A DNA stretch of 37,872 nt from Microlunatus antarcticus (lineage in GTDB: Bacteria > Actinomycetota > Actinomycetes > Propionibacteriales > Propionibacteriaceae): assembly GCF_014193425.1 (NCBI RefSeq), contig NZ_JACHZG010000004.1, positions 1 to 37,872 of the forward strand, written 5' to 3'. Positions within the stretch are counted from its first letter, which is position 1. Each line of letters starts with the position of its first letter. The position numbers and the translations under genes were made by a program. A model generated the notes under the pieces. The model made no database searches, was not told the DNA's origin, and saw only the letters and a program-made list of their open reading frames with translations. This document shows, one piece after another, positions 4,406 to 19,389 of this stretch.

Positions 4406-5104
4406 GTGCAGCCGTGGGTGATCGTGATGATCGCGGTCGTCGTCGTCGCCGCGGCACTCACCGTCTACGGCGCCCTCTCCGACCGCGCCAAGAACCGTCG
4501 CCGTGCCGCCGAGATGCTCGGGCCGCCGAAGCGCGACATCCCCAACCTGCCGACGGAGGCCCGCTCCCCGGCGTACGTCACCGAGGCCCAGGCCCGGCGA
4601 CGCCCGGAGGGTGCACCCTTCGACAAGCTCAGGGAACGCGGCCGGGACGAGCCCGTCGGCACGCACGACGAACGCCGCCTCGACGTCGGTTACGCCTCCG
4701 CGGCCTTCGTGATCACCCCGGGCGCCCGCGACGTCGTCCTCGACGACGCGCTCGTGCTCGTGTGCGCCGACGGGGTCGAGACGATCCGCGAGCTGCTGCC
4801 GGCGCTCGAGCAGGCGATCCGGTCCAGCCGACCGCTCGTCGTCGTCGCCCCGACCATCGCCCCGGACGTGCTCGGAACGCTCGAGGTCAACGCGATCCAG
4901 GGGAAGGTACCCGGGGTCGCGGTACTCGCGGACGACGCCGTCCGCACCCAGGTCGCCGAGGCGACCGGTGCTGTGCCGGTCGACGCGACGGACCGACGTT
5001 CCGGGTGGCTCGACCCGCAGTCGCTGGGGCACGCGGCCCGCTGGACCAGCACGCGTACGACGAGCCGGATCGCGCCGAGCGTCCGGACGGGAGCAGCAGG
5101 ATGA
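4406..5104 (+). CDS. Membrane-anchored GroEL apical-domain-like protein
   Basis: GTG at 4406 gives 232 residues. Residues about 4-22 (WVIVMIAVVVVAAALTVYG) form one transmembrane helix; a basic, proline-rich linker follows. From about residue 92 the sequence parallels the chaperonin apical domain: DVGYASAAFVITPGA resembles GroEL's RGYLSPYFINKPE, and ETIRELLPALEQA resembles NIREMLPVLEAV. RPLVVVAP, DVLGTLEVNAIQGKV and GVAVLADDAVR also follow the GroEL order (from memory). The C-terminal LDPQSLGHA resembles LEDLGQAKRV. The equatorial ATPase and intermediate domains are absent, so it cannot be a folding ring subunit. A dispersed repeat encodes the linker residues FDKLRERG. The stop overlaps the start of an EamA transporter (ATGA at 5101), so the two are co-translated. 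Function unknown; a substrate-binding or scaffold role is only inferred. Confidence 0.75.
   Translation: MQPWVIVMIAVVVVAAALTVYGALSDRAKNRRRAAEMLGPPKRDIPNLPTEARSPAYVTEAQARRRPEGAPFDKLRERGRDEPVGTHDERRLDVGYASAAFVITPGARDVVLDDALVLVCADGVETIRELLPALEQAIRSSRPLVVVAPTIAPDVLGTLEVNAIQGKVPGVAVLADDAVRTQVAEATGAVPVDATDRRSGWLDPQSLGHAARWTSTRTTSRIAPSVRTGAAG
4616..4638. repeat. Dispersed CTGAGCTTGTCGAAGGG repeat inside a coding sequence
   Basis: The 23-bp copy begins CCCTTCGACAAGCTCAGGGA on the plus strand. It is the inverse of the copies at 9381-9459 and 9822-9844. It is read in frame as FDKLRER in the linker between the membrane helix and the apical-like domain. Confidence 0.8.
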
Positions 5105-9348: not shown

Positions 9349-9380
9349 TCGGGACGTACGCCCGCCTGACCCCGTCGATC

Positions 9381-9459
9381 GCTCCCTGAGCTGTCGAACG
9401 CTCCCTGAGCCATCGAACGCCCCCTGAGGCGTCGAGCGCTCCCTGAGCTGGTCGAAGGG
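9381..9459. repeat. Four tandem degenerate CTCCCTGAGC-TCGAA repeats
   Basis: Units of about 19 bp start at 9381, 9399, 9418 and 9437, each a variant of CGCTCCCTGAGCTNGTCGAA. The last continues into GGGCCCCGGAGGGGTTGGC, matching the extension of the copy at 9822-9861. The units are contiguous with no unique spacers, so this is not a CRISPR array. It is a dispersed repeat family that is multiplied here upstream of tRNA-Glu. Confidence 0.85.
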
Positions 9460-9551: not shown

Positions 9552-9627
9552 GTCCCCATCGTCTAGCGGCCTAGGACTCCGCCCTTTCAAGGCGGCAGCG
9601 CGGGTTCGAATCCCGTTGGGGGTACCA
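9552..9627 (+). tRNA. tRNA-Glu (anticodon UUC), integration target
   Basis: The acceptor 5' strand GTCCCCA (9552-9558) pairs with TGGGGGT (9617-9623) with wobble pairs at 1:72 and 2:71. The anticodon loop CTTTCAA gives anticodon UUC, and the T-loop is TTCGAAT. Discriminator A is at 9624 and CCA is encoded at 9625-9627. From 9584 onward the sequence is duplicated at 19346, so the 3' half of this gene was supplied by the integrated element. Compared with the displaced copy it has G instead of A at 9600, making T-stem pair 49:65 a G-U wobble. Confidence 0.93.
9584..9627 (+). repeat. attL core (tRNA-Glu 3' end)
   Basis: The 40 bp from CTTTCAAGGCGGCAGC to TTGGGGGT match 19346-19385 except G9600 versus A19362. 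Identity resumes for CCA after the differing discriminator (A9624 versus C19386). Crossover by the tyrosine recombinase is expected within the anticodon-to-T-arm segment. Confidence 0.9.
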
Positions 9628-9720: not shown

Positions 9721-9821
9721 ACGCAACTTCCTGCCGCGCGCCAGCCCACCTCGCGCGCACGAAACGGCCTGAACGCCCCCTAATCTCGTCGGAGCGTGGC
9801 CAACGCCCCCTCAGCCCAGAA

Positions 9822-9861
9822 CGCTCCCTGAGCTTGTCGAAGGGCCTCGAAGAGGTTGGCT
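9822..9861. repeat. Dispersed CTGAGCTTGTCGAAGGG repeat copy
   Basis: CGCTCCCTGAGCTTGTCGAA and the following GGGCCTCGAAGAGGTTGGC match the last tandem unit at 9437-9476. Copies therefore lie on both sides of tRNA-Glu, one outside and one inside the element. Its 3' part can form a short CCTC-GAA-GAGG hairpin. Confidence 0.75.
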
Positions 9862-9967: not shown

Positions 9968-10162
9968 GTGCCGGGTGACGTCGAGCGTCTGCTCACGATC
10001 GTCGAGCTGTCCGAGATGCTCGGCATCCCCGTCGACACCCTGTACGGCTGGCGCCACCGTGGCGAGGGGCCACAGGGCTACCGCATCGGCCGGCACGTGC
10101 GCTACCGGCGCTCCACCGTCGAAGTCTGGCTCGAGGGACGGCTCGACCCAGCCCGGCGTTGA
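9968..10162 (+). CDS. Excisionase-like helix-turn-helix protein
   Basis: The 64-residue protein runs from GTG 9968 (preceded by GAGGGGGAAC). LLTIVELSEMLGIPVDTLYG is a MerR/AlpA-type winged helix, followed by WRHRGEGPQGYRIGRHVRYRRSTVEVWLEG. This is the standard excisionase or HTH_17 form found directly upstream of actinobacterial tyrosine integrases. It should bind attP arm DNA and bias recombination toward excision. Its stop is 6 bp before the integrase start, so they form one operon. Confidence 0.88.
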   Translation: MPGDVERLLTIVELSEMLGIPVDTLYGWRHRGEGPQGYRIGRHVRYRRSTVEVWLEGRLDPARR

Positions 10163-10168
10163 CGTCTG

Positions 10169-12078: not shown

Positions 12079-12309
12079 ATGCTTGCTGCGCTCGCAGCTC
12101 TGGCTGTGGTGGCGGCTACCGAGATTCGACTGCGGCTTGCGGGGTTTGATGTCATCCGTATCTCAGTCGAACGAGTCCAATCAATCCAAGAGGGTCGCCT
12201 ACCCCTTGTTCGTGAACTCGAGTTAGCCGAAGAGGACGTGACAATGAAAGCCGCCCAGTGGGGACGCCGCACCATCTTCTTCCGCCGCCGCCCCCAGGAC
12301 CTGACATGA
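12079..12309 (+). CDS. Small membrane-anchored protein coupled to the HEPN gene
   Basis: The 76-residue protein (ATG 12079; GTG 12076 also possible) has one N-terminal transmembrane helix (MLAALAALAVVAATEIRLRL) and a charged helical tail (VERVQSIQEGRLPLVRELELAEEDVTMKAAQWGRR). Its stop overlaps the start of the HEPN nuclease gene (ATGA, 12306-12309), so the two are co-translated. That placement suggests a partner, membrane tether or regulator of the nuclease. No family is recognised. The same frame extends upstream through an amber codon at 12034, so this may be the surviving C-terminal part of a two-helix protein. Confidence 0.55.
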   Translation: MLAALAALAVVAATEIRLRLAGFDVIRISVERVQSIQEGRLPLVRELELAEEDVTMKAAQWGRRTIFFRRRPQDLT

Positions 12310-13757
12310 CAAGCCCGAGCCCGCTCAAGCTGACTCTCGAGCCCGGCGAGTTCGACTGCCAGGCTGAACTGCCCTATCCCGACGGCACCGCCGCCCGGCT
12401 CAACGGCCGCCTCCGGCTCTCCGCGGACGGGCGGCCCGAACTCGCCCTCTACGGCGCCATCCCGGCCGAGTTCCACATCAACGACAGCAACGGCGAGATG
12501 TGGCAGGACTTCCCGCAGACCAGCTACCGCCCCAGCCTCCAGGTCGATCTGGTCAACGGCCGCGAGGTACTGCTGATCGACTGCAAGATCACCTTCTGGA
12601 TCGAACGAGCCCTGATCGTCGGCACGATCGCCGTCGTCGGGATGCCCGGGAACTTCACCGGCACCGACCCCTGGCTGTTCGACGGCCTCCAGCTTCAGAT
12701 CACCGGCTGCGACGCCGTCATCGCGCCGTCACCGCTGGCCCAGGTGAAGCAGCCGCAGACCAAGGAGATCAACAAGCCGTTTGAATGGGCCGTCATCGAA
12801 CGGCTCCCGCGCGAGACCGTCTCCGCCGACAACGACGCCGAGGTGTCGTCCGGCTGGCACAACTCGTTCTCATTCCCCAACGGCTACCAGCACAGGGTCG
12901 CATTCAGCCCGGTCATCGACGTCAATCTGCAGCAGCCCGTCGACCTACCCACCCTCGCCAAGCAGTGGATCCACCCGCTGCACCGCATCATCGGGCTCTC
13001 CACCGGTCGGGACGAGAAGATCACCTACCTCGGCCTGCGCCCGACCGGAAACGAGGACCGCGTTCTCCAGGCGTTCGGGGTGAACCTTGTCCAGCAGCCC
13101 TACGCCGCGGACCACAACGAGATCATGCGCACCAGGCGTGCCTTCCAGTGCTACGGCGACGACAACCCAACGCTGCTGCAGCTCTGTCGTGGATGGCAGC
13201 AGGCCGAGGCCGGCGACCACCCGCTGATCGCCACCCTGGCCGCGTTCATGTTCTTGCCCCGCCTCCAGCCCAGGCCGCGGTTCCTGCTGCTCGTTCAGGC
13301 CCTCGAGGGCATGCACGGGCACGAGCATGCCGGCGCGATCGCCGACCGTGAGGAGCAGCACCTCAAGGAACGAGGCGCGGCCCTCGCCGCAGTCAAGACG
13401 GCCGACTTCGACCCGGCGGTGAGAAAGTTCATCAAGGACAACCTGTCCAAACGGCCGATCACCAGCCTCGAGCCCGCGCTCCGCAGCGCCGTCGAGACGC
13501 TGCCCGACGACCTCGGGCCACGGCTGGCTGACCTCGCACTCGTCGACGAGGTGAAGGCCAGCGACGACAAGGTGAAGAACTGGGCCGAGGCCCTGCGTGT
13601 CGTCCGTAACGGCCTCTCCCACGGCAGCCGCACCTGGCCGGCTCATCTCCTTGCGCCCGCCGCAGACCTACTCGACCAGATCGCCCGCGCGCACCTCATG
13701 CGGGTCATCGGCTGCACAACCAACGCCCTGCACACCGTGCTGAACCCCGACGCCTGA
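12306..13757 (+). CDS. HEPN-domain ribonuclease, ApeA-like architecture
   Basis: The 483-residue protein has a beta-rich N-terminal half (about 1-290: LEPGEFDCQAELPY, LTGYDAV-type strands, FSPVIDVNL) and an alpha-helical C-terminal third. The C-terminal part has PRFLLLVQALEGMHGHEHAG at about 335-355 and ends with WAEALRVVRNGLSHGSR. R434-N-G-L-S-H439 fits the HEPN RNase catalytic motif Rx4-6H. This two-part plan, including the QALE block, resembles ApeA-type abortive-infection proteins, in which the N-terminal domain senses and the HEPN domain cleaves RNA. Membership is inferred from motif and layout, not from a search. It is co-translated with a small membrane protein upstream, and a 74-residue gene begins 23 bp downstream. 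Likely cytoplasmic, acting on tRNA or mRNA during infection. Confidence 0.72.
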   Translation: MTSPSPLKLTLEPGEFDCQAELPYPDGTAARLNGRLRLSADGRPELALYGAIPAEFHINDSNGEMWQDFPQTSYRPSLQVDLVNGREVLLIDCKITFWIERALIVGTIAVVGMPGNFTGTDPWLFDGLQLQITGCDAVIAPSPLAQVKQPQTKEINKPFEWAVIERLPRETVSADNDAEVSSGWHNSFSFPNGYQHRVAFSPVIDVNLQQPVDLPTLAKQWIHPLHRIIGLSTGRDEKITYLGLRPTGNEDRVLQAFGVNLVQQPYAADHNEIMRTRRAFQCYGDDNPTLLQLCRGWQQAEAGDHPLIATLAAFMFLPRLQPRPRFLLLVQALEGMHGHEHAGAIADREEQHLKERGAALAAVKTADFDPAVRKFIKDNLSKRPITSLEPALRSAVETLPDDLGPRLADLALVDEVKASDDKVKNWAEALRVVRNGLSHGSRTWPAHLLAPAADLLDQIARAHLMRVIGCTTNALHTVLNPDA

Positions 13758-14540: not shown

Positions 14541-16320
14541 CTAAACTTTGTCCTCTGGAAGGAAGAACGTCTCGTTGAGACGGCTGTCTGGCTTGAATTG
14601 CGAATACCCGACGCGTGTGATGCCACCGAGGCCGTCGTGCGATACGAATGATTCTTCACGGAACTGCTCGACCCGCTCGCGGGAGTCGTTCGCGCGAAGG
14701 CACTGACCAGGAGTTAAATAGAACGCGAGCGACCGCAAGTGATCTTCGCGCTTGTGAAAAGCTTCGAAGTCTACGGGCGCGCGGGAGAGCGACTCGACCT
14801 CCAACAAGACGCTCTCGACGAGAGACCTCTTCAGGCGGCGAGGTAGGGCTGGGATAAGGTTAAGCATCCCGTCCTCGCTGACAACGATGATGAGGCATCT
14901 CCCGCCAGCCTCTTCCAAATAGCGGTGTGCCGAGTTGAAGCGTGCCCCTCGACTAGCGTCCCCCAAGCCCGGTACTGCGCGGCCATCGAGGATCGCGCCA
15001 ATGGCATGACACAGGCCGCTGGGGTCGACGATGATCGCGCCGTCAATTGCAGAGACCGCCAGAAGTGTCGATTTGGTTAGCAGATCAGGTACGGCCTGCA
15101 TTGCTGGGGGAGAGAGACGAATGGCCTCCGCCGGCGCATCAGCATGGACCACCAGCATCGTTCCATGCGCCTGATTAGATGCAGTTAGTGCCAGATCCCA
15201 AAGTAGCCCGACATCGGCTTCATCTCCAAAGAGTCGCTCGACTGCGTCTTCGAATGCGTCTCGGGCTAAGCGCTCCCGCGGAACCGAAGCATGGCCATCG
15301 GTTACCACCAACAGCGCTACTCCAGCATGTTCTAACTCCCACGAGCCTCGGCCGATCACGCGCAGGAGAAAAGCCGACTCGCGTTCGGCCGCATAGCCGT
15401 CGACAAGAGTGCCTAGGCCGAGAGCGACATGTCCGTTCGTTATGAGCTGAAGGTCGGGGTCAGTCATCTCGAGAGCCTTGCGTAACGCCCGAGTCTCACT
15501 GAGTCTGATTGGACTTTCAAACTTAAGTTTGAGCAAGTAGTCAGACTCGGCGCCCACCAGCATGGTTCCAACTCCGGTGCGTCCCTCATACGGCTGCGCG
15601 GCAACGAGGTTCATCGCTGAATACGGGTCGCCGCCCCAGTAAGCACCTTTAAAATAGACAAGTTGGCGAACGAACTCGCCTGATGCTCGTCGGACTACTT
15701 CGGTGCGGTCATTACGCAACAACCCCTGTGGCTGCTCGGATATGGAAAGTGCGAAGGAGGCGCTCTGAAGAAGTTCGTGGATTACTGCCTCTTGAAGAGA
15801 CAGATACATCTTGATCCGGTGATCGTATTCTCGAAGTGAAAGTGTTGGGAGGGCATCCCACCTGCTGCCTATGACGCCTATGACTGGGTAGACCCGATAG
15901 CGCCCTACCCTTTCCGAGTAACCAACAAACCATCGCCGGAAATCGTGAGCGGCGTCTGAGTTCAACGCTCTTGCAACGGCCGCAGCTCGACACTCATCAA
16001 GCAGGCCAGCATGGTAACGGTCGTGAGAACCAGCATCGGTACTGAGTATATTGCGATTCTCGTGGTATATTGCGATTCTCGTGACTTTCGTAAGCTGCGT
16101 CACCAGCGGTCATGCATCCGGCGAGGATCTCAGGTGCGATCCCGGCGTTCTCCGGTTCTACACATATGGGCTGCTCGGTCGGCTCCTCCGCGAACCCGAC
16201 AAGTAACACCATGGGAGCCACGATCACGCCGATTGAGTTGAGCGACTCGTTGGCTACTGCCTCAAAGTCCACGCGAAAATGGGGCTGAAACCCCCACATA
16301 AACTGGTTAATTATTGACAT
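14541..16320 (-). pseudogene. Diadenylate-cyclase-like (DisA_N/DAC) gene, frameshifted
   Basis: Translation from ATG 16320, which has a perfect AGGAG site, gives MSIINQFMWGFQPHFRVDFE... until a 19-bp tandem duplication (16047-16084) shifts the frame. The remainder is open to TAG 14541. Removing one copy restores a single frame of about 586 residues. The N-terminal part (about 370 residues) has no recognised family and resembles in position the sensor domains seen before DAC domains. The C-terminal part carries DAC features: HGTMLVVHADAPAEAIRLSP, AIDGAIIVDPSG (the DGA motif), GDASRGARFNSAHRY in the place of the RHR motif, and IIVVSEDG. RFN replaces RHR, so the product, if any, may not be c-di-AMP. 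As sequenced, only truncated products are expected. Less GC-rich than its neighbours, which suggests transfer. Confidence 0.75.
16047..16084. repeat. 19-bp tandem duplication causing a frameshift
   Basis: Units 16047-16065 and 16066-16084 both read TATATTGCGATTCTCGTG plus one base (G, then A). The extra 19 bp (19 = 3x6+1) moves translation out of frame between the SD-led start at 16320 and the long downstream frame. Both frames therefore contain a HENRNI peptide. Short tandem repeats like this can be gained or lost by slippage. Confidence 0.92.
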
Positions 16321-16324
16321 TTCG

Positions 16325-16351
16325 CTCCTACTTCATCGTTATCCGATTCTA
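16325..16351 (-). promoter_or_regulatory. Ribosome site and -10 box fixing the cyclase-gene start
   Basis: AGGAG (16329-16325) lies 4 nt before ATG 16320 on the minus strand. TAGAAT (16351-16346) is a good -10 hexamer, implying a leader of about 20 nt. This decides the start at 16320 rather than the GTG at 16103, which has no ribosome site. Confidence 0.65.
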
Positions 16352-16672
16352 GGCGTCACGATGTCGCTCCGGCGCTGACGCGCTGATCGCACAGGACGAT
16401 TTTCTATCCGCCGCATGCTTGACGAGGGTGGCTGAGCGAGGATTGGTAGCTCGACCCCGACGTCGAGAAGCGGTCACCTTGTCCGTACTACCGACCTTGA
16501 GCTTCTTGCTCCTTGGTCAGTTTCGGTGGAGGTCATAGTTGCGACGCTGCGGCGTGGTCGACCACCACCTTCGGTCGCCCGACAGGGATGCAGAGCGACG
16601 CAGCGTCAGTGCTCGGCTAATCTACGCGAACCGCAGCCATGGGCTCCACGACCACCAGGAAGACTGATCGAC
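16352..16672. other. Intergenic region before the DUF4062-like gene
   Basis: No gene is seen. TTGACG at 16419-16424 could be a -35 box for the rightward gene, but no matching -10 is clear. The open frame upstream of 16673 (from GTG 16526) reads as arginine/proline-rich noncoding-type sequence and is not accepted as an N-terminal extension. Confidence 0.5.
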
Positions 16673-17536
16673 ATGACGTTTCCTTCAACCGTGCTCAAGG
16701 TGTTGATCGCATCGCCAGGCGACACGCGAGCGCTTCGTGACGAGGCAGAACGTGCGCTGCACGAGTGGAACGGTGACCGAGCAGAAACTTCCGGAGCCAT
16801 CCTTCTGCCCCGACGCTGGGAGACGAACGCCGTTCCGCTGGTAACCGGAACCGACGGCCAGAGCGTAATCAACTCGCAACTGGTGGATGACGTCGATATC
16901 GTCATCGGCATCTTCCACGCCACCCTCGGCCGCCCCACCCCGAGGGCGGTCTCGGGCACCGCTGAGGAGCTAGCCGCCAGCTCCGCCGCCGGCAAGCCAG
17001 TTCACGTCTTCTTCGGCTCCATGCCGATCCCGCACGACCACGACCGCGACCAGCTGGCAGCCCTCGACGCCTTCAAGAAAGAGATGAGCAAGCAGTCCCT
17101 TTACAGCTCCTATGACACCCCGGGGTCGCTAAACCAGCAGATCAAGTCCGTCATCGAGTACGACCTCAAGGTCTTCGACGTCGCCAACTCAACGGGAACT
17201 CGAGCACCGCGCGGCGCCTCCTTCCGTGTGAACTACGTCTACGACCGTGAGCCTGACGCACGAGGAAAGATGACCACGAGGCACGAGCGCCTGCACTTCG
17301 TGAACGACGGCGACGCCCTCGCTGAGAACCTCACCTTCGAGCTCGACCCTGGACCTGACGGTTCGGCACCCACGACCTGGGGCGGTGATGGCCCCTTCAC
17401 CGTCGCGCCCAACGGCGGGAGCTTCGACGTCGCGACGATCACCTACGCTGGTGTCAGCGACAAGGTCACCCTCAAGCTGCGTTGGACAGAAGCGGACGAG
17501 ACGCGGGAGTCCTCCCAGACCGTGACCTTCTACTAG
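16673..17536 (+). CDS. DUF4062-like protein with C-terminal Ig-like domain
   Basis: The 287-residue protein begins VLKVLIASPGDTRALRDEAERALHEWN and continues ILLPRRWETNAVPLV, QSVINSQLVDDVDIVIGIFHATLGRPT, then SGTAEELAASSAAGKPVHVFFGS. This is the plan of DUF4062-type, TIR/nucleotide-binding-like Rossmannoid domains (residues about 7-165) common in bacterial conflict genes. The conserved glutamate in SGTAEE and the acidic DDVDIVIG strand are in place. Residues about 185-287 form a beta domain (RLHFVNDGDALAENLTFELD, VAPNGGSFDV, KVTLKLRWTE) resembling the membrane protein at 14011. ATG 16673 is chosen because the similarity starts there; AGGAAG lies about 10 nt upstream. Likely a sensor or NAD/nucleotide-handling effector; the activity is inferred. 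Confidence 0.7.
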   Translation: MTFPSTVLKVLIASPGDTRALRDEAERALHEWNGDRAETSGAILLPRRWETNAVPLVTGTDGQSVINSQLVDDVDIVIGIFHATLGRPTPRAVSGTAEELAASSAAGKPVHVFFGSMPIPHDHDRDQLAALDAFKKEMSKQSLYSSYDTPGSLNQQIKSVIEYDLKVFDVANSTGTRAPRGASFRVNYVYDREPDARGKMTTRHERLHFVNDGDALAENLTFELDPGPDGSAPTTWGGDGPFTVAPNGGSFDVATITYAGVSDKVTLKLRWTEADETRESSQTVTFY

Positions 17537-18408
17537 ACCCGGCGCTGGATTGCTCGTCCGCTGCTGCTTCCTCTGCGACCGATGTCGATCCGCCAAACTC
17601 CCGACCGATTGGCCGGCGGCCGCTTATGACTACATGACAGCCTCTTGCTGACAAGGCCATATGCCGCCCGTGGTCGTCGAAGTTGCTGATTCGACGTGTT
17701 CGAGCGGCACCGGCACGCCATCTGAACGGGTGTTTCGGATGATGGTCGTCTATGGTGACGATCCGCGTGCGCGCGGCCCTGCTGCAACAGGCGTCAAGGT
17801 CCCCAGCGGACGCGTTGCCAGTTGCAGGCCGCTGCTCTGATGGACGCCAACCCGTTGTCCCCGCCTGCGCTCCTCGACGAGCACCTCGCCGCTCGAGACA
17901 CCGAGGCGTGTCCACCGCGCGTGCCCTGCTGCGGCAACGGTTCACCTCAGACGAGGCTCGCGTGCTCGCCTCAAAAGATGCCGTCGAACCCGTAGCAACG
18001 AGTTCACACACCTCTTGCACTTCGGATGCGCCGGCCACCAGCAGCCCGGGCTCGCGAGTGCTGAACACCCACGGCCCAGGGGAACTTGGCTCGAGGGGCG
18101 GGGGGAGTAGAGCCAATCGACCGGAGCTGGCACCGGCACCGTCACCGTCGCCAGCACGGCTCCGCTGAGCCGACGAAGCGCACGGCTTGGCGATGCGACT
18201 CGGCCCGTCTCCTAACCGCGCGAGCACGGATGCCGAACGTCCTAGCAGGCCCTTGGCAACACCAGAACAGTGTTGCGGCAGCTCCCGTGCACACGGCGAA
18301 AACGCTCTGCTGATAGATCGCTAGCCAGAGTGCAAGAGGTGTGTGAACTCGTTGCTACAGGTTTGAGCGTCGCGCCTGGCGGACAGCCCTTAGGGCGCGG
18401 AGGTGTCC
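17537..18408. other. Large intergenic stretch with MITE-like insertion
   Basis: Over 870 bp no frame has a ribosome site, recognisable domain or natural composition; the open frames are arginine/serine-rich on both strands. The main structure is the 30-bp inverted repeat at 17992-18358. A short frame from ATG 17840 (MDANPLSPPALLDEHLAARDTEAC) looks protein-like at first but stops within the repeat, so it could be a gene remnant cut by the insertion. Confidence 0.5.
17992..18358. repeat. 30-bp perfect terminal inverted repeats (MITE-like)
   Basis: GTAGCAACGAGTTCACACAC and the next ten bases (17992-18021) are the exact reverse complement of 18329-18358. Pairing continues outward for seven more positions with two mismatches (17985-17991 with 18359-18365). 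The 307-bp interior holds no credible gene. The layout fits a miniature inverted-repeat element or a decayed insertion sequence that lost its transposase. No clean target duplication is obvious. Confidence 0.75.
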
Positions 18409-18957: not shown

Positions 18958-19345
18958 TTGGCCACGCCCGGCACAGTGATAGCGCGCAACGCTGCTCGCG
19001 GGTCATCTTGCAAGGGAGCGCTGGATGCGGGCTCGAGGAACGTTCCCCCTGAAGGGGAACGACCTAACTTCACCGAACGCCCGCCCGTCTCCAAGGTCGC
19101 CGGGTGGCCGGCACGCAAACTGGCCGGGATAGCGACAGAGCGCTTGGTCCTGTGCCAGCATCGAATTGTTCGATTACCGATGCCCCGGGGGCGGCCTGGG
19201 CACTTTTTGGGCACACGAGGTCGAAAAACGCCGCCGACGTTCGACAAATGTCGACAGACCCGATCCGGGTATCGTTCCTAGTCATAACCACATTCGGCGG
19301 CTTTCGACAGACGTCGCCAGACATCAAAAATACGCCCTGGGCGCG
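18958..19345. other. attR-proximal noncoding arm with repeats
   Basis: No gene is seen. TGGGCACTTTTTGGGCAC (19197-19214) repeats the double TTGGGCAC unit seen near attL. A direct repeat TTCGACAAATGTCGACAGAC (19240-19259) recurs at 19303-19322 with three differences, and its first copy contains the palindrome TCGAC-AAAT-GTCGA. These are plausible arm-type recombinase sites. Confidence 0.5.
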
Positions 19346-19389
19346 CTTTCAAGGCGGCAGCACGGGTTCGAATCCCGTTGGGGGTCCCA
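19346..19389 (+). repeat. attR core: displaced 3' end of tRNA-Glu
   Basis: Positions 19346-19385 repeat the anticodon-to-acceptor part of tRNA-Glu with A at 19362, which restores a Watson-Crick A49-U65 T-stem pair, then C and CCA. No 5' half precedes it, so it is the displaced chromosomal tRNA end left at the far junction. Confidence 0.9.

Follow-up and report, generated by a model that had tools for sequence, protein, structure and literature searches.

The split gene and its surroundings

The window analysed here is a stretch of 37,872 nt from Microlunatus antarcticus. The region 14541–16320 holds, on the minus strand, one diadenylate cyclase-like gene that is spread over two reading frames (ORF A and ORF B). 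The gene lies within a 9.8 kb integrative element in tRNA-Glu, which is identified by its flanking attachment-site repeats and its integrase. The features are collected in Table 1. GC content is 57 % in the cyclase-like gene, 64 % in the element and 71 % in the rest of the window.

Table 1. Features of the tRNA-Glu element and of the split cyclase-like gene
Feature	Coordinates	Strand	Basis
tRNA-Glu (TTC), 3' end = attachment site	9552..9627	+	ARAGORN
Left attachment-site repeat	9580..9627	+	48 nt direct repeat, 45/48 identical to 19342–19389
Tyrosine integrase, 370 aa	10169..11281	+	PF00589, E 3.7e-22
ApeA-like HEPN protein, open frame (ORF 12258–13757)	12306..13757	+	N-terminal PF18862 above, HEPN PF18739 below Pfam cut-off
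ORF B, 520 aa: remaining DACNG, DACNH, DAC	14541..16103	-	PF21752 positions 69–208, PF21750, PF02457
ORF A, 107 aa: 85 family residues (DACNG start), then 22 out-of-frame residues and stop	15997..16320	-	PF21752 positions 1–87, E 1.2e-18
Duplication unit, downstream copy on coding strand	16046..16064	-	Exact period-19 run
Duplication unit, upstream copy on coding strand	16065..16083	-	Exact period-19 run
Shine–Dalgarno-like AGGAG, 4 nt before ATG 16320	16325..16329	-	Sequence
DUF4062/PDC-S60-like protein (ORF 16526–17536)	16673..17536	+	PADLOC PDC-S60, E 4.4e-25, positions 4–164 of 906
Right attachment-site repeat, bounds the 9.8 kb island	19342..19389	+	45/48 identical to 9580–9627

Two proteins encoded near the gene within the island resemble defence proteins (Table 1); for the second of these the Pfam DUF4062 match is not significant (E 0.26). 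A small ORF before the integrase (about 9969–10163) reads by eye like an excisionase-type helix–turn–helix protein. There is a MITE-like structure inside the island at 17984–18366, in which 307 nt are flanked by 38 nt inverted repeats that are 95 % complementary. Directly before tRNA-Glu there is an imperfect tandem array of 4.1 copies (9372–9448; CCGTCGAACGCTCCCTGAG), whose period of 19 is also that of the duplication described below, and a motif resembling its unit recurs near 9820–9850.

For five related loci, part of the neighbourhood was compared with Pfam and PADLOC. In Nocardioides oceani (L006, 2017–5218) a SIR2 and HerA defence pair comes after the homologous gene, and the homologue at L005 has a recombinase and a NACHT protein nearby. 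At L004, L007 and L008 the part compared showed no recognised defence neighbour.

A 19 bp tandem duplication separates the two frames

The match to the Pfam DACNG profile is divided between ORF A and ORF B. A six-frame search of the organism's own genome gives the same picture, with two overlapping partial DACNG matches (1–87 and 68–208). ORF A ends at the stop codon at 15997–15999. ORF B is open throughout, with no further stop or frame change, and its other two frames hold 21 and 19 stops. No Shine–Dalgarno-like motif was seen in the sequence upstream of the GTG at 16103, where ORF B begins.

There is a period-19 run at 16046–16083 which consists of two units that are identical at 19/19 positions, a perfect tandem duplication. 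Since 19 leaves a remainder of 1 when divided by three, the reading frames on either side of the duplication differ. At exactly 38 bases the run has zero excess over two copies, and so no microhomology is left at its ends. Base composition predicts 1.9e-6 exact two-copy, period-19 runs for the window, and this is the sole exact run there with at least two copies at any period from 10 to 79.

Much of this had been proposed in a sequence-only reading of the same DNA. The start at 16320 led by a Shine–Dalgarno sequence, the displacement of the 520-codon frame from that start by exactly one repeat unit, the HENRNI peptide encoded in both ORFs and the diadenylate cyclase-like identity of the product were all borne out. 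The repeat it described is exact and real, and its units needed correction by one base, from 16047–16065 and 16066–16084 to those in Table 1. Its figure of about 586 codons after removal of one copy agrees with 85 plus 500 residues when the shared peptide is counted once; an intact relative has 587.

Comparison with intact relatives

The closest intact relative found is that of Paeniglutamicibacter antarcticus (L004), which is 69 % identical and encodes 587 aa in a single frame. ORF A aligns without gaps to L004 residues 1–85 (the BLASTP alignment spans 81 residues), and ORF B aligns from residue 80 onwards with no gaps around the junction. A separate comparison of the window with L004 gave residues 3–85 and then 80–587. 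The six L004 residues covered by both pieces correspond to the duplicated HENRNI (HENRRM in L004). On L004 the two pieces therefore adjoin and share nothing but the duplicated hexapeptide, which indicates that the relatives carry one copy. pN/pS values against L004 are 0.276/0.759 and 0.182/0.652 for the two pieces; as non-synonymous differences are far fewer than synonymous ones in both, the whole gene was formerly under protein-level selection.

The N-terminus is in frame in 18 of the 21 homologous loci, in another frame in two and absent from one. The sequence-only reading had named homologues that start at the equivalent of 16103, with no N-terminal extension, as evidence that would speak against a frameshift, and the in-frame extension in these 18 loci upholds its view of the gene. 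No repeat (at least two exact copies, period 10–199) was found at the equivalent place in the 34 other loci. None of the 19 other genomes of the genus that were searched carries the gene, so no one-copy sister allele was found.

Relationship to DS-2 and to classical diadenylate cyclases

The NCBIfam model NF053872 (DS2_3_antiphage, 576 positions) is matched full-length in two pieces, 1–84 in ORF A and 72–575 in ORF B, and L004 matches positions 2–575. The window pieces score 418.5 and 70.8 bits and the intact L004 506.3 bits, and the equivalog cut-off of 630 is not reached; this makes both genes relatives of the third gene of DS-2 rather than DS-2 itself. According to the passages on DS-2 in the DefensePredictor report (PMC13092281), DS-2 is a validated anti-phage system consisting of a phospholipase, a cGAS-like enzyme and a diadenylate cyclase, and defence was abolished when one or the other of two residues predicted to be catalytic in the cyclase was mutated. 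The window gene shares full-length homology and the DACNG-DACNH order with the third DS-2 gene; it differs in being frameshifted. Additionally, the DS-2 operon has a CBASS-like phospholipase and nucleotidyltransferase, whereas no such pair was found in the island. A search of the organism's own genome for the nucleotidyltransferase family PF18144, the only family searched, gave no match; the search was not exhaustive, as the same kind of search missed the window's own DAC domain. As the DS-2 partners are not beside the gene and PF18144 was not matched, an anti-phage role in this host is proposed by analogy. The description of the gene as an immune gene in the sequence-only reading is supported by its full-length DS2_3_antiphage homology and by the defence-like neighbourhood.

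Seven plasmid records carry a relative, and the neighbourhoods of three were viewed. A patatin-like phospholipase and a nucleotidyltransferase adjoin the Citrobacter and Gluconobacter copies but not the Dyadobacter copy. The Citrobacter copy scores 803.8 bits as DS2_3 and shares 33 % identity with P0001 across 484 aligned columns. The gene is carried by 18 of 5426 E. coli genomes; one of these copies, viewed in annotation, also adjoins a phospholipase and a nucleotidyltransferase.

PF02457 (DAC) is matched in the window at 33.3 bits against a cut-off of 27; at E 0.01 neither L004 nor the Citrobacter copy gives a match to it, and the structural model of L004 matches the DAC fold at residues of about 345–483. 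RHR is the motif of classical diadenylate cyclases such as DisA and CdaA/DacA. In all 14 rows of alignment A3 the DGA motif is kept, whereas the RHR position reads R-F/Y-N/S/G. DisA and CdaA/DacA also carry N-terminal domains other than those of this family. Given the RHR change, the product and activity of the DACNG-DACNH-DAC family may differ from those of the classical enzymes. A single further DAC match in the organism's own genome lies in a 375-codon open frame; the search that gave it was not exhaustive and missed the DAC domain of the window gene.

Broken genes among the relatives

The survey set comprises 35 distinct genes: the 21 homologous loci, the window and 13 further genes. Eight of the 35 are broken, by differing lesions, several of which are sized like possible sequencing errors. 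Apart from the window, the N-terminus is in another frame in Kribbella (L007) and Raineyella (L020), and in Tetrasphaera (L019) nothing matches ahead of query residue 174. At L053 (G876) a nonsense TAG within the first fifteen codons (position 1513) replaces the Q of the conserved MWGFQPHFR and the rest is open, while at L049 only the first 53 residues are left. The remaining two are broken in the DAC part, by a frame change in Dermacoccus (L022) and by a frame-destroying tandem duplication in Tessaracoccus massiliensis (L024), in which the second copy (5015–5100, 86 nt) is one base shorter than the first (4928–5014, 87 nt).

In the genome surveys, leaving out the window, 6/26 genes are broken (G132, G061, G728, G547, G451 and G876), compared with 3/117 genes in a control set with the HsdR N-terminal domain (Fisher p = 0.0012); this contrast may be overstated because the control was judged by open-frame length and stops only and the cyclase also by tblastn. 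The 117 control genes were counted by hand from 128 rows, omitting nine short-protein rows (361–468 aa), one row below the cut-off and one row for a duplicate gene. If the nine short rows are counted as broken the control becomes 12/126 (p = 0.087). The E. coli copies do not follow this trend: all 18 align with the whole query uninterrupted, and these copies are nearly clonal.

Probable effect of the duplication on the gene

We consider it probable that this is a horizontally acquired DS2_3-like (DACNG-DACNH-DAC) anti-phage gene which has been switched off by a recent 19 bp tandem duplication. Translation from the ATG at 16320 would give the 85 family residues and the 22 out-of-frame residues and would then terminate. 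ORF B has no evident ribosome-binding site and lacks the first third of the sensor domain; little if any functional protein is therefore expected. As the duplication splits the gene into two out-of-step pieces, there is probably no working protein here. The duplication may be recent, as its copies are identical, a comparison of only 19 bases, and no further lesions are present. The allele resembles other pseudogenes and reversible alleles that arise from short tandem duplication, in that it is likewise a perfect two-copy repeat with a length that is not a multiple of three, and it differs from them in nothing but the gene affected.

The sequence-only reading had offered a recent inactivation, a slippage (phase) switch or an assembly error, and of the three it is the recent inactivation that fits best. 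For a selected switch, in which one or two copies flip a costly immune gene on or off, the chances appear very slight. Slippage can remove one copy from a perfect tandem repeat of two, and the broken gene of T. massiliensis also has a tandem duplication that destroys the frame. However, such a switch is unlikely because the repeat is seen in no relative at the equivalent place. There are also just two copies with clean ends and no array, and the remaining broken homologues owe their state to a nonsense mutation, different frame changes or truncation, none of which is a switch.

It seems highly unlikely that expression of ORF B from an internal start, such as the GTG at 16103, yields a working enzyme with a truncated N-terminus and an altered sensor. 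The frame is open and retains DACNH and DAC, and point-like lesions in the family are concentrated among the first 90 codons out of about 587, a post hoc observation (4/6 with the window, binomial 0.006; 3/5 with the window left out, binomial 0.028). Against this are the missing Shine–Dalgarno-like motif and the position of the break, which is predicted to fall inside DACNG between a short helix (78–81) and a long helix (87–112) of the L004 model (mean pLDDT 85; model numbering is three lower than alignment numbering). Furthermore, the broken homologue at L049 has lost nearly everything other than its N-terminus.

It is also improbable that an error of assembly or sequencing created the duplication and that the gene is intact in the strain. 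An exact extra copy of 19 bp is an unusual type of error, short-read assembly tends to collapse repeats and not to add them, and no other exact run of this kind is present in the window. These points stand against the origin of the 37,872-base contig in a draft of 18 contigs and against the small frame changes in other drafts (L007, L020 and L022), which have the size of sequencing errors.

Implications for the gene family

If the gene was indeed inactivated by the duplication, the two-copy allele could revert by losing one repeat; the reversion rate of a short two-copy repeat is expected to be low. By homology to DS-2, the intact protein would join an abortive-infection type of response. In a wider interpretation, DS2_3-like actinobacterial cyclase genes that lie apart from CBASS partners would be repeatedly switched off, partly by revertible tandem duplications, so that a silent, costly immune gene is kept and rare revertants restore it under phage attack. 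We think this unlikely.

Tandem duplication is an ordinary way of breaking a gene. The value of this case lies in the gene affected, which is distantly related to an anti-phage gene validated only recently and which is also broken, by a different lesion each time, in six of the other 26 surveyed genomes with a copy. Should this frequent breakage be upheld under better controls, it would point to a gene that carries a cost in the wrong host or when its partners are missing, and the two alleles with tandem duplications, those of the window and of T. massiliensis, would be natural tests of revertible immunity silencing.
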